A DNA stretch of 64,000 nt from Methanobrevibacter sp. (GCA_017407115.1 JAFQXD010000042.1:124001-188000), one strand, 5' to 3'; numbered from the stretch's first letter, positions 11,193 to 47,373 are shown. Notes: a model not told the origin generated them from the letters alone. Numbers and translations are program-made.

Positions 11193-11987
11193 ATGATAAC
11201 TAATAAAACTGTATTTAATATTAATCGTGTAGCAATACCATTCTCTAAGAAAGAATTAGAATCGGTAATCAATCAGAATGTAGTAAATGGGTATATTTCT
11301 ACTACATATAATAATTTAATACAAACTTTGGAAGATATTTCCCGTTCTAAGGAATATCCAGTTGTATTGAATCCGAATGAAATTTTTACTTCATCTAATA
11401 ACCCGTTAATTAGAAATGATGTTTTGATTAGGGTTGAAGGTTTACAATCCTATGGTGAATTCATTAATAATGTAATAAGAGATAGCGAAGATGGTTATTG
11501 GACTGATTTTATGACTTATTCTGAATTATTCAAGGATGAAATCAAGAAAGTCAAAATGCTTGCTTATAAGAAGTTTTTGTGGAATTATCATAATATTGAT
11601 GAATGGTTTACGTCTAAGAATATCGGTTTGATTGACGATGATAAAAATATGTTGGTTAGTGATTTCCAGACATTTAAAGAAAGAGTTTTAATGACAGATG
11701 ACTATGAAACTTTTATTGATTCTTGTAAAACAGAAGATATTTCTAATGCTATAAAGTATATCATCAAGAAAGGTTGTGAAGTTTTACAGAAATATAAGGT
11801 TGAATTAAATAATCATATTGCGATTGATAATAAAAGACAGACAAATATAATTTTGAAGAATCCAATTATTACAAAGATATTCTTACAATCTTCTGCTGCA
11901 TCTCGTTGCAAGAAAGACTGGCCAAGAATTAAGTTTACTACATTGGATAAGAAATCATTTGACACTATTGGTATTTGGGAAGTTTAA
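11193..11987 (+). CDS. virion protein, probable baseplate component
   Basis: 264 aa with no recognised domain. First gene of a late operon whose next two members look like baseplate wedge proteins. Mixed alpha/beta composition with no signal peptide or membrane helix. No Shine-Dalgarno site before the ATG. Role inferred from position only. Confidence 0.45.
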   Translation: MITNKTVFNINRVAIPFSKKELESVINQNVVNGYISTTYNNLIQTLEDISRSKEYPVVLNPNEIFTSSNNPLIRNDVLIRVEGLQSYGEFINNVIRDSEDGYWTDFMTYSELFKDEIKKVKMLAYKKFLWNYHNIDEWFTSKNIGLIDDDKNMLVSDFQTFKERVLMTDDYETFIDSCKTEDISNAIKYIIKKGCEVLQKYKVELNNHIAIDNKRQTNIILKNPIITKIFLQSSAASRCKKDWPRIKFTTLDKKSFDTIGIWEV

Positions 11988-15048: not shown

Positions 15049-15078
15049 TATAGAATTTTTAATAAGAAGGTAATAAAA

Positions 15079-18000
15079 ATGAAAAAGATAATCGGAATAT
15101 TACTATTTTTAGCTGCATTCGTTTTTTCTGCAGACTATAAGCCGTTTAACTTTGAATCTATCCCACAAGATTCTGCAAGTCAACAGGATCAATTTGATTA
15201 TATGCTTCAATATAAGTTATATGGTCATGATTTTATCAAAATGGGAAACGATGTTCGTATTCCAGACAAGTCAGGTTGGAATGGTACTGTAGGTAATATT
15301 ACTTCTAATGCAAGATTGACTTTGGGCGGTCCGATTCTTGCAAATGGCAGTATTTCTATGGGAGATGGTCCAAATAATATTACTGGACCAGTTCGCTCAG
15401 TCGATTTTGATCTTGGAAATGTAAATGGTTCTAAGATTGCAAGCCCTGTTTGCTTAAGTGGAACTGCAAATACTAATGCATTATCTGCGATTGAAGATCA
15501 TAAGACTTATTCTTTTGATACAGACATTTGTAAGGACAGCGTTCCTGCTGCACCTACAAATCTTTATATGCCGATTGTTGATTGGGATAATCTTGGTGCT
15601 GATGTTAAGTTGAATGATATTGTTTTAAGTGGCAATGATGCTGCAGATACTATTTTTGTTCCTAAGGGCGAAGGTGCATATAAGATTTTAATTGACAAGA
15701 TTCAGTTTGGTCTTGGTGGAACTAATGCAAGCCATTTATATGTTAAGATGCAAGATGGCGGTAGATTGACACAGATTTTCGTAAAGAATTTTATTTATGG
15801 AAACCATGCTACAATTCAGGTTGTTTATGATACTGACAGTGGAAGCGTAGTATTGAATCAGGACCAATATCGTGGTAACTTGATGTTCTATTCTAATAAT
15901 GTTATTAGTTTTGATAATATGGACTATGCTCCTATTCAAGGTTCATTTATTTCTACTGATTCAATTTTCTTAGGAAGAAATGTTAATATTTCTGGTCAGT
16001 TATTGACTAATAAGCTTGAAATTGGAAATGATATTGATGGTAAAAACTTCAGATTTGTTAAATTCGACCCTGATACAATCGATGTTAAGCTTGATAAGTA
16101 TGGTGGTTTGAGAGAAAATGATTCTACTGTTATTATTCCTATTGAATTAAGCGATACTGCTACTATTGCTGTATATTTTAGATATTGTTTTGATTTGAAA
16201 GATGGTGTAACTGTTGAAGACTTCATTATTCCACCTACATTCCCTGTTTGTGGCACTGATCAGCCAAAAGAAGTATCTATTCCTATCGGTTCAAAGACTC
16301 CAAGTGATCCAATTAAGGTAAATGTTAAAGTCGATACATTGACAGAAAATGAATATCTTGTAATTAAGATTGACAGTATTTCTGGTGCTATTCTTCCTGA
16401 TGGTAAGACCGAAGGTGAATTAAAAATTAAAATTATTGATGCTCCAGTAGGTCATGTTGAATTTGATACTACAAAGACATATAAGTTCGAGGAAACCAAA
16501 CTTGGTGAAGTAGATGTAATCAAGATTTTAAATGGAACTGAAAATACTCGTTTCCATCTTGATAGCGCATATACTGATAGATATGAATTGGATAGCTTGA
16601 CTGGTAAGTTGACACTTATTGGTGAATCATTAGATTATGAAAAGGCTGCAATCGATGTTATTAAGGTTACATTGACTGACACTGGCAATGTAAGTGTAAC
16701 TCGTAATATCCCTATTTCTGTAATCGACGTTAATGAAGCACCTACTATTGATGATATAACTACTAATCTTCCAGAAAATCTTATTCATCCATTTATGGTT
16801 GAGAAGTTGGTTGCAAAAGATCCAGATACTAAGACAGCATTTACTCAAAATGTTTTCAGTATGCTTGAAGGTGATACAAGTTTATTCAGAGTAGATTCTG
16901 ATGGTGAAATTTGGGCTAAGAAGACATTTGATTATGAAACAGATCAAAAGACCTATACTTTGAAGGTTTTGGTCCAGGATAAGACTAATCCAGCATTGAA
17001 GGATAGTGCTATTGTTACTGTTAATATTACAAACAGCAATGATGGTCCTAAGTTCGATACTCATGATACTACATTCCATGTAAAAGAAAATGAACCATTT
17101 AAGGATAGTGTAAAGGCTACTGACCAGGATGGTGATAAGATTACTTATTCTATCGTTGGAACTGTTCCTTTCAAAATTGATTCTAATGGCGTAATCACTT
17201 CTACCAGAACATTTGACTACGAAAAAGAAACAGGATTTACATTTAAGGTCGTTGCTGATGATGGTAAAGCAAAAGATACAATGACTGTAAATATTATAGT
17301 AGACAATGTAAATGAGCCTGTTCATACCAAAGATACAACTTTTGTTGTAGATGAAGGTAAAACCGGTGAAATCGGTAAAGTCAAAGGAGAAGATGAGGAT
17401 GGAAAGCCTGTTAAATTTTCTTGCGATGATAGTGTGCATTACAGCATCGATATTAATACTGGTGTTCTTAGACTGGTAGACCCATTTGATTATGAAGTTA
17501 CTAAGTCTGATACAGTTAAGGTATTTGTAACTGATGGAGTATTTACTGATACTGCCATAGTTGTTGTTAATGTCAATAATGTAAATGAACCGCCTGTATT
17601 ACAGCCGAATGACTCTCTTACAGTTCCTGAAAATTGCAAGAGCTGTATTGTTGGTATCATTACTGCTGTTGATCCGGATAGCGATAAGGTAATTTACGAA
17701 GTTAAGGAACCAGGCTTTACAATCGATTCTAATGGAGTATTAAAGCTTACTGATCCTCTTGATTATGAGAAAACTCCAGAAGTTAAGATTACTGTTATTG
17801 CAAAGGATTCTAGTGGTGCAGCTGATACTGCTACCTATGTAATCAAGGTAACTGATATTAATGAACCAGTCCATGTTCAAGATACAACTTGTTCTGTAAA
17901 GGAAAACTATACTGGAAAGGTTTGTAAGATTGATGCTTGGGATGAAGATAAGACTACTCCGAAGTATACAATTACCGATACTACAAATTATTCTATAGAT

Positions 18001-19875
18001 TCTACAGGAACAATTACTATCAAGACTCCTATCGATTATGAAAAGAAGACAAAGGACACAGTTACTGTTATTGTAACAGATGGCGAATTTTCAGATACGG
18101 CACAGGTAATTATCAGAGTTCTCGATGAACCTGAAGATGTAAAGATTACCGAATGGGATCATAATCCACCGCCTGATACAGTAAAGACTAATGACCCTGA
18201 TCATGAATATAAGTGGACAATTTGTGAAGGCGATTCTTGCATTACACATTATGATAATCCACGTATTCATAAGGACACAACGATTAAGGTTTGCAATGAC
18301 AAGAAGACTGTTTGCGATTCTATTGTAGTATTGTTCAATGATGCACCTCCAGTAGTTACTTTAACCAATGCAAAGTCTACTGATGCCTTGATTGACTATA
18401 TTACTATCGAAGAGCAGAAGGATGATAAGATTTATGTCAATAAGAAAGATAATGAATTGAAAGTTACTGTTCGTGATACTGTTCATAAGACAGAAAAGAC
18501 TTTCCCGATTGATGTAAAGCTTGATACTGTTCATGTTTCTTCTAAGAATGTTGTTGAATACAATTACTTGATTGATGAAAGCGTTGCCAAGGTTACACCT
18601 ATCGGTAATGGTCTTTATGAAGTCAAGGAAGTTGTAAAGGTCGACGGTAGAAATGTTACATTGACTAAGATTGTCGATAAGAAGATGAATCCGGTTGATA
18701 CGATTCAGACTGTAACATATACAGTTAAGCAAGATGGTAAGGAATTAACTATTACTTATAAGACTGACAATTTAACAGGTCAGAGAATCGGCGATTATCA
18801 GGTTTCTTATAAGATTGATTCTTGCACAACAGTTTCTTATTACTTAGGTGACAATAAAAAGATTACTAAGAATGAAGAAGGTAATATTGCCTATACAGTA
18901 AGCTATGAATATACCGATGATTATGGTAATAAGGCTACTTCTAAGGTAGATATTATTTTCGATGATATTCCGCCAGTAGTAGAGATTCTTACACCTTATG
19001 AAATGGAAAAGTTCAATACTAATGCTATTCCAGTTGAATGGACTGTTAATGGTGTAAAACAAGATACTTTGACATTACAGCGTCTTGAAAAGGGAATTAA
19101 TTCTGTAATTCGTAGATATGTTGATAAGGCTGGAAACGTTGCAGCTGATACGATTATGGTATTCATGAATGAAGCAAAGGATATTGACATTACACTTGTT
19201 CATCCTGTAACAATGGTTGATCAGGACAAAGTTGATAGCTTCTATTCGGAAGGTAATAAATACGATCCTAAAAAGCCTTACACAGTTACTACTTTGAAAG
19301 GTGATGATAAACCTGACCCAGTAGGTATTGGATTTAAGATTGATGTTGCTTTGCCTTCTGTATCACCAACTGGAAATGTATCTACATTATCAGATATAAT
19401 AAAAAATGATAAAATACCTGTTGATGATAAAGGTAATGTAGTTGGAGCATCTAATCTTAGCATACCAGTAGAAGAATATATAAATGAAAATTGTACTGAT
19501 GATTTTAGACAAGATTATAATAAAAATGGAACTAATATACCATTATACAATGTTAAATACAATTTACATTTATGGATATATACTTCAAATGCTAATTATG
19601 TAAATGATTTTGAAATTAACTATGATATAGATTCTAAAACTGAAGCAAATGAAGCTAGTATAGCGAATTTTGTAATAGATTGGATTCCTGAAAAAGATGG
19701 TAATGTTAAAGCTAAAAATCAACATTCACTTGGAACTGGAGCATATTTAGTTAAATTGTATAGTAAATCAACTGCTATATATAGATGTGGCTTTAAAAAC
19801 CAAAAAGCTGGTGATAAGATTACCAAAAAAGAATATAATCTTAAATCATTTGGCTATAAAAGACCTAACAAATAA
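15079..19875 (+). CDS. giant secreted protein with cadherin-like repeats
   Basis: 1598 aa. Signal peptide MKKIIGILLFLAAFVFSA. Residues 20-370 are beta-rich without a recognised family. From about 380 to 1030 there are five or six cadherin-like repeats with calcium-type linkers (DVNEAP, NVNEPP, DINEP) and DYE/FDYE...VxVxDG signatures. More Ig-like segments follow. The last 137 residues duplicate, at about 60% identity by hand alignment, an orphan coding stretch at 23924-24343. From about 19370 on, codon use shifts to the very AT-rich style of the homing endonucleases, so the 3' end is a foreign replacement. Probably exported to or beyond the outer membrane; role unknown (adhesion or surface masking possible). 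Confidence 0.8.
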   Translation: MKKIIGILLFLAAFVFSADYKPFNFESIPQDSASQQDQFDYMLQYKLYGHDFIKMGNDVRIPDKSGWNGTVGNITSNARLTLGGPILANGSISMGDGPNNITGPVRSVDFDLGNVNGSKIASPVCLSGTANTNALSAIEDHKTYSFDTDICKDSVPAAPTNLYMPIVDWDNLGADVKLNDIVLSGNDAADTIFVPKGEGAYKILIDKIQFGLGGTNASHLYVKMQDGGRLTQIFVKNFIYGNHATIQVVYDTDSGSVVLNQDQYRGNLMFYSNNVISFDNMDYAPIQGSFISTDSIFLGRNVNISGQLLTNKLEIGNDIDGKNFRFVKFDPDTIDVKLDKYGGLRENDSTVIIPIELSDTATIAVYFRYCFDLKDGVTVEDFIIPPTFPVCGTDQPKEVSIPIGSKTPSDPIKVNVKVDTLTENEYLVIKIDSISGAILPDGKTEGELKIKIIDAPVGHVEFDTTKTYKFEETKLGEVDVIKILNGTENTRFHLDSAYTDRYELDSLTGKLTLIGESLDYEKAAIDVIKVTLTDTGNVSVTRNIPISVIDVNEAPTIDDITTNLPENLIHPFMVEKLVAKDPDTKTAFTQNVFSMLEGDTSLFRVDSDGEIWAKKTFDYETDQKTYTLKVLVQDKTNPALKDSAIVTVNITNSNDGPKFDTHDTTFHVKENEPFKDSVKATDQDGDKITYSIVGTVPFKIDSNGVITSTRTFDYEKETGFTFKVVADDGKAKDTMTVNIIVDNVNEPVHTKDTTFVVDEGKTGEIGKVKGEDEDGKPVKFSCDDSVHYSIDINTGVLRLVDPFDYEVTKSDTVKVFVTDGVFTDTAIVVVNVNNVNEPPVLQPNDSLTVPENCKSCIVGIITAVDPDSDKVIYEVKEPGFTIDSNGVLKLTDPLDYEKTPEVKITVIAKDSSGAADTATYVIKVTDINEPVHVQDTTCSVKENYTGKVCKIDAWDEDKTTPKYTITDTTNYSIDSTGTITIKTPIDYEKKTKDTVTVIVTDGEFSDTAQVIIRVLDEPEDVKITEWDHNPPPDTVKTNDPDHEYKWTICEGDSCITHYDNPRIHKDTTIKVCNDKKTVCDSIVVLFNDAPPVVTLTNAKSTDALIDYITIEEQKDDKIYVNKKDNELKVTVRDTVHKTEKTFPIDVKLDTVHVSSKNVVEYNYLIDESVAKVTPIGNGLYEVKEVVKVDGRNVTLTKIVDKKMNPVDTIQTVTYTVKQDGKELTITYKTDNLTGQRIGDYQVSYKIDSCTTVSYYLGDNKKITKNEEGNIAYTVSYEYTDDYGNKATSKVDIIFDDIPPVVEILTPYEMEKFNTNAIPVEWTVNGVKQDTLTLQRLEKGINSVIRRYVDKAGNVAADTIMVFMNEAKDIDITLVHPVTMVDQDKVDSFYSEGNKYDPKKPYTVTTLKGDDKPDPVGIGFKIDVALPSVSPTGNVSTLSDIIKNDKIPVDDKGNVVGASNLSIPVEEYINENCTDDFRQDYNKNGTNIPLYNVKYNLHLWIYTSNANYVNDFEINYDIDSKTEANEASIANFVIDWIPEKDGNVKAKNQHSLGTGAYLVKLYSKSTAIYRCGFKNQKAGDKITKKEYNLKSFGYKRPNK

Positions 19876-19923
19876 GGACAGGTAGCCCTCGTACTACTTG
19901 GGATAGAGTTGCAGCTCTATCCC
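19874..19923 (+). promoter_or_regulatory. HEG-associated kissing-loop RNA, copy 2, 5' half
   Basis: AAGGACAG (19874-19881) begins inside the TAA stop. H1 pairs AGGTAG (19880-19885) with CTACTT (19894-19899); its loop CCCTCGTA (19886-19893) complements TACGAGG (22932-22938) before the endonuclease ATG at 22943. H2 is a perfect 9-bp stem (19900-19908 with 19915-19923); its loop holds TGCAG (19910-19914), complementary to CTGCA in the H3 loop (22903-22907). The partner half lies 3 kb away, beyond three inserted genes. Confidence 0.75.
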
Positions 19924-19996
19924 TAACTTTTTGGATAATTTTTATAAAAGTTCAGTTTTGTAAACATAATTTTACATATTTTTTACATAAAATTGG

Positions 19997-20025
19997 TTTA
20001 CAAGAATAAGTTTATTTATTATATT
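19997..20025 (+). promoter_or_regulatory. sigma70-type promoter
   Basis: TTTACA (19997-20002), 17-bp spacer, TATATT (20020-20025). It drives the Cys-rich outer-membrane protein gene at 20070. Confidence 0.7.
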
Positions 20026-20069
20026 TTAACTAACAATTAAACAAATCAACTAAAAAGAGGTATTAAATT

Positions 20070-22181
20070 ATGAAGAAACTTTTGATTTTGATTCTATGTT
20101 TGGTTTCTTTGTGTTTTGCTGATAAAATTTTAACTACTACTGTTGGAAAATTAAATCCTACATCAAAAGTAATTGGTGGTTATGAAGAAACGCATGGGGT
20201 AAAAGTTACTTGGAACTTATCTAAAGGTAGAATTACCACAAAGGGAAATTCTTTAGATTCAGCTGAAGAATTTATGATTCGTATTTGGGATAAAAACAAC
20301 CAAAGAATTGATGCTTATGCTTCGGAAATTTTTATTAATAAAGACTTGACTGGTGACGAATATAAAGTTTATGGAAATGATTTGAATGATGCTAAATTCT
20401 TAGATTTGGTGTTTTTTAATGATAAGTTCAATCCAACAAAGTCAACTTTTGTATGTACTGATGACCATACGGTTCCATTTGAATTAGAAAATGGTAGTGT
20501 TGTTTGTGCCAATCCAGATACAACATTTAAAAATAAAACTATTATAATTTATAATGATGAAAACAATAATAATGATTATTTGATTAGAGAAGTAAAAACT
20601 TGTAAGATTAAAGAAAAATGTGATGGTTTTAAATCATATAATCTTAATACATCTGAATTTGAATGTCATACAAATTATTATAAACAAACAACAGAAAAGA
20701 AATGTATTCCTGAAAAGAAATGTAAGAAATACGAGAAATTAGATGAATATGATTACTGTGTTAGTCCTGATTCTGGGTATATTTGGTTAAATAATGATAA
20801 GAATGATTTAAGTCAAAGACCTGCTTGTAAAGCAGAAAATGAACGATATAATGAAAACACTAATCAATGTGAATACAAGATTGAAAATTCTCATTGGGTT
20901 GGAAAATCTTTAGAATATGAATGTAATGAAGGTTATGTTTCTATTAATGGTCTTTGTGAAGAAAAAGTTTCTTGTAATGGAGATGAAAGATACAATGAAG
21001 AAAATAATAGTTGTGTTTCTAAACCCGAAAATTCTCACTGGAATCAAGATAACGATATAATTTGGATTTGCGACAACGGTTATGTAGAAAGATATGGAAG
21101 TTGCGAAGTTAAAAGAGTTTGTAATGAAAACCAAAAATATGTTGAAACAGATAATTGGTGTGTAAATCCACCAGCTAATGGCTATTGGAATTATAGAGGT
21201 GATGTTGTATGTAATGAAGGTTATGTAAAAGTTGGTTTATTGTGTGAACAGAAAGCCGAATGTGAACATTGGAATAGTGAAGATAATACTTGTTTTGAAA
21301 AGCCTGCTCATTCTCATTGGGTTTATAGTGAAGGTGCTACTTGGGAATGTGATAATGGTTATCATAGTGATACTGAAAATGAGTATTGTTTTAAATGTGA
21401 AGGAGAAACACAGTTCAATTATTCAACGAATACTTGTGTAACAAAGCCTGAAAATTCACATTGGAGTAGTGAAGGAATTTGGCATTGTGATAATGGTTTC
21501 TTTGAAACTGAATATAGTTGTGAAGAAATTAAAGAGTGCGGTTTCTTTGAACGATATAATTCTTATACAAATGAATGTGTAGATAAACCATCGGATTCTC
21601 ACTGGACTTATGATAATAGTACAAACTGGGAATGTGATGATGGTTACTACAAGACTTACTATGATAAATGCGAAAAGACAAACCCTATTGATTTAACAAA
21701 CTATATAAATTTTGCCCACGATTTGACTTTTGGTATTGGTGCTGGTAGTGGTAAAGACCAAAAAGATAATTCCACCACGATTTTCAATGTAGAAGCAAAT
21801 TATAACATTGGGGTTAAAATTGGTAATGAATTTTTCAATATAAGACCACAGTTTAGTGTTGGTTTATTGTACACAGAATTTGAATATAGTGGTTACATTT
21901 ATATGGATGAAACTGTAAATTCTATGGCATTTACTTTCGGTCCGAATATTGGGTTTGATTTTTGGAAGTTTAGTTTTGATTATTCTTATATTTGGAGATG
22001 TGGAGAAAGGCTTGAAAGCATTACATTCAATGACACCTATTCTAAATATAAGTTTGGATTTAATATAAATGAACATTTTAATGTAAATGTAACAATGATT
22101 TCTAAAATGATTAGTAGCACACAACGATTGAAAGAATTTGATGATAATATGTTCTCACTTGGTTTAACATATAGGTTCTAA
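20070..22181 (+). CDS. Cys-rich repeat outer-membrane beta-barrel protein
   Basis: 703 aa. Signal peptide MKKLLILILCLVSLCFA. Residues 130-540 hold about nine EGF-like modules with the recurring pattern C..., KPENSHW, WxCDNGY, CE. The last 165 residues (FAHDLTFGIGAGSG onward) alternate polar and aromatic residues and end in LTYRF, the aromatic C-terminus of outer-membrane barrels. The likely design is a barrel anchor with a disulfide-rich domain. It lies inside the homing element with its own promoter and is followed after 1 base by a lipoprotein gene. Possible roles are surface masking or superinfection exclusion, or it may be a captured host gene. Confidence 0.7.
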   Translation: MKKLLILILCLVSLCFADKILTTTVGKLNPTSKVIGGYEETHGVKVTWNLSKGRITTKGNSLDSAEEFMIRIWDKNNQRIDAYASEIFINKDLTGDEYKVYGNDLNDAKFLDLVFFNDKFNPTKSTFVCTDDHTVPFELENGSVVCANPDTTFKNKTIIIYNDENNNNDYLIREVKTCKIKEKCDGFKSYNLNTSEFECHTNYYKQTTEKKCIPEKKCKKYEKLDEYDYCVSPDSGYIWLNNDKNDLSQRPACKAENERYNENTNQCEYKIENSHWVGKSLEYECNEGYVSINGLCEEKVSCNGDERYNEENNSCVSKPENSHWNQDNDIIWICDNGYVERYGSCEVKRVCNENQKYVETDNWCVNPPANGYWNYRGDVVCNEGYVKVGLLCEQKAECEHWNSEDNTCFEKPAHSHWVYSEGATWECDNGYHSDTENEYCFKCEGETQFNYSTNTCVTKPENSHWSSEGIWHCDNGFFETEYSCEEIKECGFFERYNSYTNECVDKPSDSHWTYDNSTNWECDDGYYKTYYDKCEKTNPIDLTNYINFAHDLTFGIGAGSGKDQKDNSTTIFNVEANYNIGVKIGNEFFNIRPQFSVGLLYTEFEYSGYIYMDETVNSMAFTFGPNIGFDFWKFSFDYSYIWRCGERLESITFNDTYSKYKFGFNINEHFNVNVTMISKMISSTQRLKEFDDNMFSLGLTYRF

Positions 22182-22182
22182 T

Positions 22183-22653
22183 ATGAAATACATACTTTTA
22201 ATTTTAACGGTGTTGTTTATTGGTTGTGCCAATGATACTGGAATGTCAGTTGAAGAAAATAATGAAGCCGAAATTGAAACTAATATAAATTATACAAAGT
22301 ATTCAAATGTTAGTTTGTATGATAATATAACCATAGAAAACATTTATTTCACTGACCATTGTGAAGAATGGGATTTTGGAGGAAATGTTTATCCTTGTGT
22401 TACATTCTATAACAATTCAAATAAAGAATACAATCTAAAAATACAATATATTGATTATTGTAATGATAAACAACAAATTACAACTGATTATTTAGATATA
22501 AAAGCATTTTCTTACACAAATATACATTCTTTAACTTGTTGGAGTCCAAAAACATATAAAATCATCATAACAACATTATCAGCCAAAGAAAATTATAATT
22601 GGAATGTTATTTGGAATGGGCGAGTTGAATTAGATTACAGAAATTTTCATTAA
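22183..22653 (+). CDS. lipoprotein, unknown function
   Basis: 156 aa. Lipoprotein signal MKYILLILTVLFIGC (lipobox LFIGC, Cys15), then an acidic tether and a beta-rich domain with further Cys pairs. Starts 1 base after the barrel gene stop, so likely co-translated; it may assist that protein at the outer membrane. No family recognised. Confidence 0.65.
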   Translation: MKYILLILTVLFIGCANDTGMSVEENNEAEIETNINYTKYSNVSLYDNITIENIYFTDHCEEWDFGGNVYPCVTFYNNSNKEYNLKIQYIDYCNDKQQITTDYLDIKAFSYTNIHSLTCWSPKTYKIIITTLSAKENYNWNVIWNGRVELDYRNFH

Positions 22654-22671
22654 AAAGGAAATACTAAAAAC

Positions 22672-22866
22672 ATGTTGAAAAAAATTATTTTTGTTTGTAT
22701 TATTTTCAATTTTATAGGCTGTAGTTCAGATAATTCTATGCAGCCGAAAGAAATTTGTCATTATGAAACAGCTTGTAATGATACACAAACAGGCGGTTTT
22801 CGTGACAGACATTCTGGTTGTAGAACACCATATCAGAAACAAGTTTGTGAAGAAATCCATTATTAA
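22672..22866 (+). CDS. small Cys-rich lipoprotein
   Basis: 64 aa. Lipoprotein signal MLKKIIFVCIIFNFIGC with CSSDNS after the cut site, then about 45 residues with five more Cys (CHYETAC; SGC; QVC). Start behind AAAAGGAA. Third gene of the envelope cassette inside the homing element. Function unknown. Confidence 0.6.
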   Translation: MLKKIIFVCIIFNFIGCSSDNSMQPKEICHYETACNDTQTGGFRDRHSGCRTPYQKQVCEEIHY

Positions 22867-22884
22867 ATTATAAATCATATTTCT

Positions 22885-22942
22885 TATAAATAATAATGTA
22901 GACTGCAGTCTACATTATTATTTATTTTAAATACGAGGAAAT
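22885..22942 (+). promoter_or_regulatory. HEG-associated kissing-loop RNA, copy 2, 3' half with late box
   Basis: TATAAATA (22885-22892) runs into H3, a perfect 12-bp stem (22891-22902 with 22909-22920) whose loop CTGCAG carries the complement of the distant H2 loop. TACGAGG (22932-22938), the Shine-Dalgarno site of the broken endonuclease gene, complements the distant H1 loop. The three envelope genes sit between the halves, most simply explained by insertion into a once compact RNA. Confidence 0.7.
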
Positions 22943-23923
22943 ATGAAATTAACATATATTTGTAAAATATGTGGAAAAGAAAGTGTAAACAATAATGGTT
23001 TAATTAGCCATATAACACAAACACACAAATTATCATCAAAAGATTATTACGATAAATTCTTTAAAAAAGAAAATGAAGGAATTTGTCTAGTTTGCGGAAA
23101 AGAAACATAGTTTATAAAATTTTCACTCGGGTATCGTAAAACTTGTTCATATAGTTGTGCTTCAACAAACAATGCTGAAGATAGAAAACAAGTTAGACAT
23201 AATAATTATGATGGAAAGTATTTTTCTAAAGAAGGTAGAGAAAAATTAAATCAAATTGCAAGTGAAACCTTTGAAAGCAGAAATAAACAAAATATAGAAA
23301 AACTTAAAACTGAATATAAAATACCAAATGAAGTAGAAATTACAAACATATCACAAATAAAAGAAATTAAAGATAAAAAAGAACAAACAAACATTGAAAA
23401 ATACGATGTTAAAAATTCATTTTTAATAAAAGATGAAAATGGAATAGAAAAAAGAATAAAAACAAGTAATGAAAAATATGGTACAAATTATCCTATGCAG
23501 AATGATAAATTACAGGATAATCGTATAAAAACTTGTATAGATAAATATGATACTTTATATTTTACACACAAATACAAATATAATGATTTAAAATTTGATA
23601 GTTCTTGGGAATTAGCATATTATATTTGGTTAAAAGATAACAATATAGAATTTACATATCAACCTAGACCTGCTATATTATACTTTTGGAATGGTGATAA
23701 TAAGTATCATAAATACTATCCTGATTTTATAGTAAATAATGAAATTATAGAAATTAAAAATCCATATCTATATTCTAAATTTTTATTAGAAGGAACAAAA
23801 GACAATGCTAAATATAAGAAAATGCTTGAATATAATGTTAAAATTTTAACTGATTGTTCTACTTATTTGAATTATATAGAATTACAATATGGTAAAAATT
23901 ATTTAGATAAATTTAAACTTTAG
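22943..23923 (+). pseudogene. homing endonuclease gene broken by an amber codon
   Basis: Paralogue of the genes at 209 and 29154. ATG 22943 behind TACGAGG; the N-terminal finger (YICKICGKES...HITQTH) is intact, then TAG at 23108-23110 interrupts the frame after KET where the gene at 209 continues KETKW. The frame reopens without shift to TAG 23921-23923 and retains KYGTNYPMQN, FDSSWELAYYIWLK, YYPDF and EIKN. An internal ATG (23495) could give a 142-aa nuclease-only product. TAG is used as a normal stop elsewhere (44798, 46816), so reassignment is unlikely. EIKN in place of EIKG keeps the ExK motif. Confidence 0.75.
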
Positions 23924-24343
23924 GGTATTCCGGTAGAAAAATATGTTGAAGAACATTGTACTGACGAATTTAAGAAGGACTATAAAAAGAATGGTTTGAA
24001 CATTCCGCTTTATGATGTTAAATATACATTGCATCTATGGATTTACACTAATACTGCTAATTACGTCAGTGATTTCAACGTAGAATATACTTTGAATGAC
24101 GAAGATGAGGTTACTTCTGCAGGAACTGTCCAGATGGTTATTGACTGGTTAGCAGATAAGGATGGCACTGTCAAGGCTAAGAATAAACATGCTCTTGGAA
24201 CTGGCGCATATTTGACCAAGTTATTCAGTAAGTCTGTAGCAAAGCACCGCTGTGACTATAAGGAACAACGTAAAGGTGATAAGACTGTTAAGAAGGATGA
24301 AACTTTCAAGACTTTCGGTTTCAAGCGGCCAAATAAAAAGTAA
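23924..24343 (+). pseudogene. displaced original 3' end of the cadherin-repeat gene
   Basis: The frame runs directly on from the endonuclease TAG: GIPVEKYVEEHCTDEF... to ...FGFKRPNKK. It matches the C-terminus of the 1598-aa protein (82 of 137 aligned residues by eye) and has the more balanced codon use of that gene's main part. It has no start or ribosome-binding site, so it is the native tail cut off by the homing element. Translation would need read-through of the TAG or an internal start at 23996. Confidence 0.75.
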
Positions 24344-24425: not shown

Positions 24426-24608
24426 ATGTTAAAATCAAAAGCAGATATATTTGTAATTTTTGGTATTTTTGTATTTGTTATCAGTCTCATGATTTTTGGA
24501 TGTAGTAAAGATGATACTGTTTCTGCATCTGAAATGTATCAAAAATGTGCGACTGTTAATGACGAAAATCCAGAGTTATGTGATCAGACATTTACGGTTT
24601 ATCAATGA
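24426..24608 (+). CDS. small lipoprotein
   Basis: 60 aa. N-terminal hydrophobic segment ending in the lipobox LMIFGC, then a short acidic tail with two Cys. Start behind AAAAGGAG. Its stop overlaps the next start (ATGA). Function unknown. Confidence 0.6.
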   Translation: MLKSKADIFVIFGIFVFVISLMIFGCSKDDTVSASEMYQKCATVNDENPELCDQTFTVYQ

Positions 24609-25087
24609 ATTATTTAAAAACATACTTTGCAATTATTGCCAAAGCGGCAGGGCGAGAGCCATCGATATTATATGATAAGCATCATATAATTCCTCAGTCA
24701 TTAGGTGGTCCAGACGTGCCTACGAACTGGATTTATTTGACCCCTAGGGAACATATGATCGCACATCATTTGCTTGCCAGAGCTTATCCAGACGTCGAAT
24801 TATTGCAGTCTGGGTTTAACCTGAAGAAAGTCTGTATTAAGTATTATGACTATTATAGATGGTCTATGAGACTGAAAGACTTAGCAGGTATGATAGAATA
24901 TAGTAAGAACAAAAAAGAGATTGTAACGCGTTTAAGAGTGCTTCTGGACGCGATTGGTGACGTAGACCTAGATAAACATATTCCGGTAAAACAACAACCT
25001 AATATGGTCAAATCTAAAGCACCAGCAACTACTGAAAAAACTGAAAAAACAGAAACTAAAAAAGAAAAAAAGAAATGCAAAGAATAA
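24605..25087 (+). CDS. HNH endonuclease family protein
   Basis: 160 aa. HNH core KHHIIPQ (25-31), NWIYLTPREHMIAHHLL (about 41-57), the layout of phage and homing-type HNH enzymes; the rest is basic with a Lys/Glu/Thr-rich tail. Overlaps the lipoprotein gene by 4 bases and the next gene by 13, so it is embedded in a small operon. It lacks the structured RNA seen before the other endonuclease genes. Substrate unknown. Confidence 0.7.
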   Translation: MNYLKTYFAIIAKAAGREPSILYDKHHIIPQSLGGPDVPTNWIYLTPREHMIAHHLLARAYPDVELLQSGFNLKKVCIKYYDYYRWSMRLKDLAGMIEYSKNKKEIVTRLRVLLDAIGDVDLDKHIPVKQQPNMVKSKAPATTEKTEKTETKKEKKKCKE

Positions 25088-29044: not shown

Positions 29045-29153
29045 AAGGACAGATATGTTACTAATCCATATTTGATATAATTTACCGGATTATATCTAAC
29101 TTTTATAAATATTTAAAGACAATCCGGTAAATTGTCTATAAATAGGGATTAGT
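29045..29153 (+). promoter_or_regulatory. HEG-associated kissing-loop RNA, copy 3
   Basis: AAGGACAG (29045-29052). H1 pairs 29051-29057 with 29067-29073; the loop segment TACTAATC (29059-29066) complements GATTAGTA (29147-29154), which reaches into the start codon at 29154. H2 is a perfect 8-bp stem (29074-29081 with 29089-29096) whose whole loop TTACCGG (29082-29088) complements the whole loop CCGGTAA (29124-29130) of H3, a perfect 7-bp stem (29117-29123 with 29131-29137). TATAAATA (29104-29111) lies between. The most complete copy: all four helices and the promoter are uninterrupted. Confidence 0.85.
29104..29111 (+). promoter_or_regulatory. T4-type late promoter inside the HEG RNA
   Basis: Exact TATAAATA. 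The expected start site (about 29117) is the first base of H3, so a late mRNA would carry H3 and the ribosome-binding site but neither H1 nor H2. Confidence 0.6.
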
Positions 29154-30308
29154 ATGATTTTGAAAATTTATTCAGAAGTAGAATTTAATATTTTAAAAAA
29201 TACACATAAAGAATATTCATATAATGGAACAAAAGCAATTTTTATTTGTTCATTATGTAAAAAAGAATCTATTAGGTCTTTTAAATCATTGACTATACCG
29301 TTTTTATGTAAACACTGTAAAGGGCATTTAAGCCATACAAGTGAAGAATATAAAGAAAAATATAAAAAATCAATGATTAAAAAATACGGAGTAGAATATA
29401 CTTTTCAAGCAGAAGGAATAAAAAATAAAGCAAAAAAGACGATATTTCAAAAATATGGTTGTGAAAATGTATTTCAAGCAGAAGAAATAAAAGAAAAAAT
29501 TAAAAATACAAATTTAATTAATATTGGAGTTGAATATCCAGGACAATCAAGGCAATGTCAATTAAAAGGGAAAGAAACATATAAAAACAAAACGGGTTAT
29601 GAACATAATATGCATAATCCAGAATCAAAAAAGAAAGTTAAAGAAACAACAATAAAAAGATATGGTGGTATTGGTGGCGCGTCAGATGAAATACGTGAAA
29701 AAATGGAAGAAACCAATTTAAAAACCTATGGTAAAAAATCATATTCATCTACTGAAGAATTCAAAGAAAAATTTCGCGAAACATCATATAAACGTTATGG
29801 TGTTGAGCATCCAACACAATCAAATATTATTAAAGAAAAAATAAAAAACACATGTATTAAAAAGTTTGGCGTGGAAAATTGTATGCAAAATCATTTTATT
29901 CGTCAAAAATCTAGGAAAAAATATATATATGATAATAAACGATTTGATTCTAGTTGGGAACTTGCATATTATATTTGGTTAACTGATAATAATATAGAAT
30001 TTCAATATCAACCAAATATTAAATTAAAATATGAATATAATAATAAAATACATTATTATTTTCCAGATTTTTTAGTTAATAATGAAATACATGAAATTAA
30101 AGGTAATTTATTTTTTAAAGAAAAAGATGAAACTAATGAAATGATTTGTCCATTTAATAAAGATTTAAATCATTTAGCTGAAGCAAAACACCAATGTATG
30201 ATTGAACATAATGTAAAGATATTAACTGAAAAAGAAATAAAATTATATTTAGATTATATTAATAAAAAATATGGAAATAATTTTTTAAAACAATTTAAGA
30301 GAAAATAA
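29154..30308 (+). CDS. homing endonuclease, KYGV-repeat + PD-(D/E)XK-like
   Basis: 384 aa. N-terminal Cys cluster (CSLCKKES; LCKHCKG), then about six modules of the form KKYGVEYTFQAEGIKNK between residues 70 and 255, probably DNA-binding units, then a putative nuclease core FDSSWELAYYIWL (about 264-276), YYFPDFLV and EIKG. Paralogue of the genes at 209 and 22943 and the most intact of the three. The start codon overlaps the segment paired with the H1 loop. Inserted between a gp23-like gene and nrdG; very AT-rich codon use. Activity and target site are inferred. Confidence 0.78.
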   Translation: MILKIYSEVEFNILKNTHKEYSYNGTKAIFICSLCKKESIRSFKSLTIPFLCKHCKGHLSHTSEEYKEKYKKSMIKKYGVEYTFQAEGIKNKAKKTIFQKYGCENVFQAEEIKEKIKNTNLINIGVEYPGQSRQCQLKGKETYKNKTGYEHNMHNPESKKKVKETTIKRYGGIGGASDEIREKMEETNLKTYGKKSYSSTEEFKEKFRETSYKRYGVEHPTQSNIIKEKIKNTCIKKFGVENCMQNHFIRQKSRKKYIYDNKRFDSSWELAYYIWLTDNNIEFQYQPNIKLKYEYNNKIHYYFPDFLVNNEIHEIKGNLFFKEKDETNEMICPFNKDLNHLAEAKHQCMIEHNVKILTEKEIKLYLDYINKKYGNNFLKQFKRK

Positions 30309-47022: not shown

Positions 47023-47373
47023 TGGACCCGAGGGGAGTCGAACCCCTGTCTTAAGTAACTTTAATATCCGTTCCTACAAGTTTTTCCTTCGAATTTACTT
47101 ATTCATTACATTTATGCCCTGAAGGTCGGCGTCAATGTAAACTAGCCTGTAAACTTCAGAAATAATACACAGACTTAATTATTTCCTAATCCATTATGCG
47201 ACCGAACTTTATACCCAATGGATGAACGGTATAGGCTCAGTGTTGCTATAAATTAAGCAGCCATTGCGTAAGTGTTAGCACTTATCTTTTTCAGACTTTT
47301 TTACAAGAACCCTCGTCTGAGACCTTGACTTGCAACTAATATCTCTATCACCCAATCGAAACCAGACGAGCCC
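47023..47373 (-). ncRNA. ssrA: transfer-messenger RNA
   Basis: One-piece tmRNA of 351 nt. The 5' GGGCTCG pairs with 3' CGGGTCC (7 bp, two wobbles); the T-arm is AGGGG-TTCGACT-CCCCT; the 5' region has GGTTTCGATTGGGT. The tag frame (47253-47279) encodes ANTYAMAA then TAA, ending in the Ala-Ala recognised by tail-specific proteases. The 3' CCA is not encoded (the discriminator A is followed by TTA), so it would be added by the host enzyme. Rescues stalled ribosomes together with host SmpB; no SmpB gene is seen in this window. Confidence 0.92.

Follow-up and report, generated by a model that had tools for sequence, protein, structure and literature searches.

A probable homing element in a phage gene that appears to bring its own divergent replacement for the 3' end of its host

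Results

Two versions of one gene end flank an endonuclease gene

The stretch of DNA analysed here, a window of 64,000 nt (JAFQXD010000042.1:124001-188000), is part of C83, a 191-kb phage contig binned in a bacterial metagenome genome, and it carries an endonuclease gene placed between two versions of the 3' end of one large gene. The latter (15079-19875; host gene and inserted features all lie on the plus strand) encodes a 1598-amino-acid exported protein with cadherin repeats (Pfam Cadherin, E=6e-40). Its native body, here called A (15079-19371), includes the signal peptide and falls in one tree group with the relatives L001, L014, L009, L005 and L003. It continues in frame into a 3' end, B' (19372-19875, 167 codons and a stop), whose third codon positions are almost without G or C (third-position G+C content, GC3, 0-0.3, mostly 0-0.1). 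Further downstream, behind an endonuclease open reading frame (ORF; 22943-23923), lies an orphan copy of the same gene end, B (23924-24343): 139 codons, native in appearance, without a start of its own, beginning with the base that follows the endonuclease stop codon and in phase with it. B' and B match over 137 codons at 59.9% amino-acid identity, far above chance, and B is 86% identical in amino acids to L001. A structure prediction for the B' domain (pLDDT, predicted local distance difference test, 53) was not used.

An earlier note on this DNA had described such a pair, with about 60% identity, native codon use in the orphan copy and the endonuclease gene lying against it, and these points hold. 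It was also right in recognizing an AT-rich copy in frame with the gene, but its extent (19465-19875, 137 codons) has to be revised. Identity between the window and a second occupied contig, L020, steps from 0.60-0.77 up to about 19371 to 0.87-0.97 from 19372, with a jump from 0.73 to 0.93-0.97 at the boundary, and GC3 drops to 0 at about 19372, some 93 bases before the left boundary first proposed; the foreign segment starts there, and the carried piece therefore comprises 167 codons. The right edge is the endonuclease stop codon in both contigs, TAG followed by GGTATTCC in the window and TAA followed by TACACG in L020. Each of the two native remnants is in phase with the endonuclease; this has a chance of about 1 in 9, and nothing is drawn from it. 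In both occupied alleles, 29 codons (GGLATLDDIVKNG...GASTK, 87 bp in relatives) are missing outside B'.

Relatives without the insertion show the ancestral order

Relatives were found among IMG/VR contigs reaching 424 kb in length; scans of 2.9 million viral contigs returned 20 loci with the orphan copy as query and 35 with an alignment as query. Leaving one contig aside, all 34 others of the latter set are empty and run from A into an orphan-like end (64-86% identity), just as the earlier note had expected of uninserted phages; the A-B reading is in frame and stop-free where checked, L019 and L066 being covered only in part. Because the deep-branching relatives L017, L018, L059 and L062 likewise pass straight from A to B, this order represents the ancestral state. 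The converse, an uninserted relative ending like the AT-rich copy, was looked for and not seen: the only other contig with such an end is L020, where endonuclease and displaced native end are present as well, and the scans of viral contigs gave no B' without the endonuclease. Neither B nor B' had a match in isolated phages (INPHARED) or in GTDB contigs.

Two terminal-domain versions of a surface-type protein lying near each other might alternatively be receptor-binding C-termini that are switched by recombination for host range; phage Mu and some tail-fibre systems hold neighbouring alternatives of this kind. We regard such a switch as very improbable here: every empty relative has a single copy, the two copies in the window are direct and share exact runs of 11 nt at most, neither a recombinase nor an inverted repeat is present at the junctions, and endonuclease and leader stand between the copies.

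A second copy of the element bears traces of its movement

L020 (IMGVR_UViG_3300037400_002804) is a second, independent phage contig that carries the element in compact form: gene body, AT-rich end, a leader some 120 bases long, an endonuclease ORF that is intact (326 amino acids) and the last 84 native codons. All sequences being metagenomic, an assembly chimera has to be considered, but it is scarcely credible, as the order A-B'-leader-endonuclease-B occurs in two unrelated contigs, the window and L020, and the endonuclease-B junction is present in a third, separate assembly, L072.

The two occupied phages differ greatly in the host gene and much less in the element. Their B' copies are 95% identical in amino acids over 167 codons, and synonymous divergence (dS) between them is 0.23 in B' and 0.17 in the endonuclease, compared with 1.43 in the gene body. 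Selection acting on B' is evident from the sequence (nonsynonymous to synonymous ratio, omega, 0.12; 0.20 for the endonuclease). In trees, the window gene body groups with the L001 group (support 0.96) and that of L020 with L013 and L056 (1.0); of the native ends, the window orphan is sister to L001 (0.87) and the L020 remnant falls with L047 and L049 (0.92). The B' copies of the window and L020, in contrast, are sisters only to each other (1.0). The unit has thus spread horizontally between clades. One gene with two homologous ends could also have arisen by domain duplication and divergence within the phage, followed by insertion of an endonuclease between the copies. This is exceedingly unlikely, given that the window's own B is not the nearest sequence to B', that a long branch places B' outside most relatives, and that it is 95% identical to the B' of a phage with a very different gene body.

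L020, which appears to have acquired the element recently, can further be compared with L013, an empty phage to which it is about 96% identical over 18 kb. To the left of the insert, about 34 nt of L020 are identical to L010 and not to L013; to the right, the first 168 nt are closest to L047 (143/167), after which the sequence returns to L013 (85/87). Flanking donor DNA thus appears to have been co-converted on both sides, in natural sequences and not in a cross, and foreign tracts on both flanks are, as far as sequence can tell, the pattern left by double-strand-break repair from a donor.

These data also bear on a simpler account, in which ordinary mosaic recombination, homologous or illegitimate, joined a foreign block from an AT-rich phage, B' and endonuclease, to A and left the former end downstream, with the endonuclease as a mere passenger that did not drive the transfer. 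In its favour, mosaicism is common among phage genes, the two tracts in L020 resemble different relatives, and the window endonuclease is broken. On the other side, two distant phages have the unit with an identical left edge and with the endonuclease stop as right edge, which argues for a defined unit; the near-isogenic pair shows foreign tracts flanking the insert to left and right; and B' was never met without the endonuclease. On balance, we consider mosaic recombination unlikely, and transfer as a homing element remains the preferred interpretation.

Two observations on L072, a sibling of the window phage (G046:C134, 99.8-99.9% identical), belong beside these. L072 has seven differences within 37 orphan bases (23965-24001), with flanks otherwise nearly identical, a cluster that may, on weaker grounds, be another small gene conversion. 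It also lacks 8.1 kb that take in the entire cadherin gene, B' and the cargo and extend into the start of the endonuclease; the two sides of the gap meet at a short repeat, AAGAAGGTA (junction near 11728-11737, corresponding to window positions 15069 and 23229); the cadherin gene may be dispensable, or this may be an assembly event.

The endonuclease and its family

The endonuclease gene (22943-23923) belongs to the DUF7487 family and encodes a zinc finger and a putative PD-(D/E)XK-like core, but in the window its codon 56 (23108-23110) is TAG, where L020 has CAG. The intact L020 protein matches Pfam PF24308 (DUF7487, 7e-12) and a PHROG homing endonuclease profile (3.9e-15), with a C2H2-type zinc finger at its N-terminus and a PD...EVK motif in its C-terminal domain. 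Its AlphaFold model has a pLDDT of 71. Motif and predicted fold would suit a homing endonuclease of the PD-(D/E)XK or EDxHD/Vsr-like kind; the nearest folds are weak matches, none of them significant, to TnsA (E 0.17), Vsr (0.23) and I-Bth0305I (0.92). A suppressor tRNA for the amber codon was sought on C83:4001-191090, where no tRNA was found. Around the gene, Rfam gave no match to an intron with an E value of 1 or below. With no protein splicing element either and the gene end replaced, this agrees with the earlier proposal that the endonuclease gene entered coding DNA without a splicing intron or intein.

The generality of the arrangement was assessed at 47 loci of the endonuclease family by tblastx of upstream against downstream flanks. 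Flank matches at L129 and L126 proved to be tandem endonuclease paralogues and were rejected as swapped ends. C83 itself has about eight genes or fragments related to the family, at 24.1, 66.4 (minus strand), 112.2, 114.4, 116.5, 124.2, 146.9 and 153.2 kb.

A split leader RNA and a probable late promoter

Between B' and the endonuclease gene lie the two halves of a leader. The 5' half, with hairpins P1 and P2 (19876-19930; model R1, 56.9 bits), is separated by cargo, which sits inside the leader, from the 3' half (22892-22942), which comprises hairpin P3 and the ribosome-binding site TACGAGG (22932-22938). The motif recurs before other DUF7487-type endonucleases: intact in L020 (10418-10538), within the window at 29047-29156 and 96-211 in addition to the split copy (19876-19930 and 22885-22942), and outside it at L098 400-508, L089 5592-5705, L095 8543-8660 and L028 12372-12484. 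Across 11 leaders, compensatory changes occur at 13 of 16 predicted pairs. Two of the loops have complementary partners, in L020 as well: that of P1 matches the ribosome-binding site, and that of P2 matches the loop of P3. For each complementarity, the observed sum was reached by none of 20000 permutations among 13 leaders. Model R1 gave 15 strong matches, which include the training leaders by construction and three repeats in the near-identical sibling (L072, L073). A further match, in L001, was discarded because it resembles a plain terminator. Rfam has no match for the leader.

Upstream of the endonuclease gene, the 11-leader alignment places a T4-type late promoter element, TATAAATA (22885-22892). 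The heptamer ATAAATA is invariant in all 11 leaders and TATAAATA is found in 10 of them, positioned between P2 and P3. On C83, 71 of its 95 copies lie at most 80 nt upstream of ORFs, where about 7 would be expected when the bases of those regions are shuffled, which suggests that this phage has late promoters of the T4 type. T4 itself keeps several of its endonucleases silent on early transcripts, their ribosome-binding site being hidden by structure and freed by an internal late promoter (PMC2988022). The leader fits this logic of silencing and late release with a pseudoknot-like design, and the timing of expression would be late by analogy.

Cargo genes and neighbouring features

Relative to L020, the window copy is longer by about 3 kb, owing to a segment with three genes that separates the leader halves (19931-22884, delimited by the spacer alignment CTAACTTT / TTATAAATAATAATG). 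Because the compact L020 element does without them, the genes at 20070-22866 are regarded as cargo and not as core. The first (20070-22181) encodes a 703-amino-acid exported protein with cysteine-rich repeats and, by eye, a barrel-like C-terminus, and has no match in Pfam, PHROG, NCBIfam or viral contigs. The second (22183-22653) and third (22672-22866) encode putative lipoproteins of 156 amino acids (signal peptide and lipobox by eye) and 64 amino acids (lipobox by eye). No relatives of the cargo were found in viral contigs, nor was it found near empty alleles.

Just downstream of the orphan copy, a second endonuclease-like gene, of HNH type, lies at 24605-25087 (PHROG 655, 4.8e-25), and a 56% relative of it sits upstream of the cadherin gene in L001. 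Elsewhere on the contig, a gene at C83:112952-115675 (L028 8952-11675) is apparently interrupted by an intein-like region (N...VVHNC) with an HNH-type endonuclease ORF (114053-114769). Two pairs of neighbouring paralogues, 34301-34576/34742-35017 and 28388-29035/30814-31464, show 65% and 37% identity, respectively, in part; the second pair flanks the endonuclease at 29154 and an nrdG-like gene. ARAGORN calls a transfer-messenger RNA at 47023-47373 (minus strand; tag ANTYAMAA) on the phage contig.

Discussion

What can be deduced about the way in which this element lives in its host gene? Very probably, a homing element has inserted into the 3' part of a conserved phage gene that was kept intact by the divergent, functional 3' end carried along with it. 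A plausible course of events starts with a mixed infection, in which the endonuclease, made late, would cut the empty allele within or next to the 87-bp GGLATLDDIVKNG...GASTK stretch. Our best guess is that the cut site lies within this lost stretch and not, as first proposed, around GIPVEKY, because the cut should fall between the two homology arms. Repair of the broken ends would then draw on the genome that carries the element, A serving as the left homology arm and the displaced B as the right one, so that B', leader and endonuclease are copied together with some flanking donor DNA. The recipient gene would now end in B', with the domain still encoded and yet too divergent for cutting or for recombination with B; the divergence between B' and B should thus protect the element both from cutting and from recombinational loss. 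B itself would remain untranslated and serve solely as a homology arm, for which reason it may shrink, as in L020. In the window phage, the three-gene cargo would have split the leader later and the endonuclease would have gained its amber codon; for these two reasons, the window copy has probably ceased to act as a donor.

Several points weigh against this interpretation. The right junctions of the two copies lie about 53 codons apart, and the two tracts in L020 point to different relatives, so that either repeated recombination or a donor outside the sample has to be assumed. Independent insertions known number only two, and the sole intact copy of the element's endonuclease is that of L020. 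For this enzyme, fold searches gave nothing below E 0.17, and its cleavage activity is something we infer from sequence. Among the 47 family loci tested, the only one with a swapped gene end is the L020 element, and the other family members on C83 have none; therefore, the arrangement is one lineage's solution and not a common property of the family.

Even so, the element probably exemplifies a class of phage homing cassettes that bring cut-proof replacement ends, transfer between distant phages by break repair through a displaced native arm, pick up cargo and impose new ends on a surface-type gene. Besides introns or inteins and gene splitting, this would be a third route by which an endonuclease gene can reside inside viral coding DNA. 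The near-isogenic empty and occupied pair shows how such an element travels, and the idea of a recoded end is directly testable, with enzyme, empty target and carried end in hand. As homing here would force a new C-terminus on an exported, adhesin-like protein, it also connects selfish DNA with changes to a phage protein of surface type.

Relation to known systems

Among phages, one close comparison is with intronless homing by SegF, SegG and MobE of T4 (PMC2988022), which likewise involves a free-standing endonuclease gene, co-conversion of flanks in the manner of double-strand-break repair and, presumed here, late expression with sequestration of the ribosome-binding site. These genes sit between genes or split them, and none in that account comes with a replacement gene end; the T4 review covers intergenic and gene-splitting insertions only (PMC2988022). 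The insertions of mobE in Aeh1 nrdA and of mobA in T4 gene 60 (PMC2988022) also place an endonuclease gene within coding sequence, but they split the gene into two polypeptides that assemble, whereas here the carried end keeps one continuous protein. With the homing of group I introns and inteins, the element shares the invasion of a conserved site in coding DNA while function is retained, which here is achieved by replacement, with no protein splicing element.

The fullest parallel is offered by mobile open reading frames (mORFs) of fungal mitochondria. The earlier note had pointed to Allomyces atp6, correctly but as a sole example; foreign C-termini accompany mobile ORFs in Allomyces macrogynus atp6, in atp6, atp9, cox2 and nad3 of Glomus sp., in Rhizopus oryzae atp9 and in Mortierella verticillata cox2 (PMC3630166). 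A Glomus hybrid gene is transcribed, and an enzyme of the Allomyces type has been reported to drive mobility (PMC3630166). The sequence features of mORFs are all found in our element: a phylogenetically foreign C-terminus in frame, an endonuclease ORF after it, and a native C-terminus displaced downstream that matches uninserted relatives. It differs in its setting, with a DUF7487, putatively PD-(D/E)XK-like enzyme in a phage as opposed to LAGLIDADG or GIY-YIG enzymes in a mitochondrion, which are typical there and not essential, and only the element described here has a leader RNA with a late promoter, a target loss of 87 bp and, in one copy, three cargo genes. Like the earlier note, we know of no phage case, none having been found in literature that we covered thinly for subscription journals. 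Judged by its sequence, the element thus appears to work like the mitochondrial mORFs, in an arrangement that, as far as we found, otherwise occurs only in fungal mitochondria, and the sharing of one solution by fungal mitochondria and phages would be a case of convergence.

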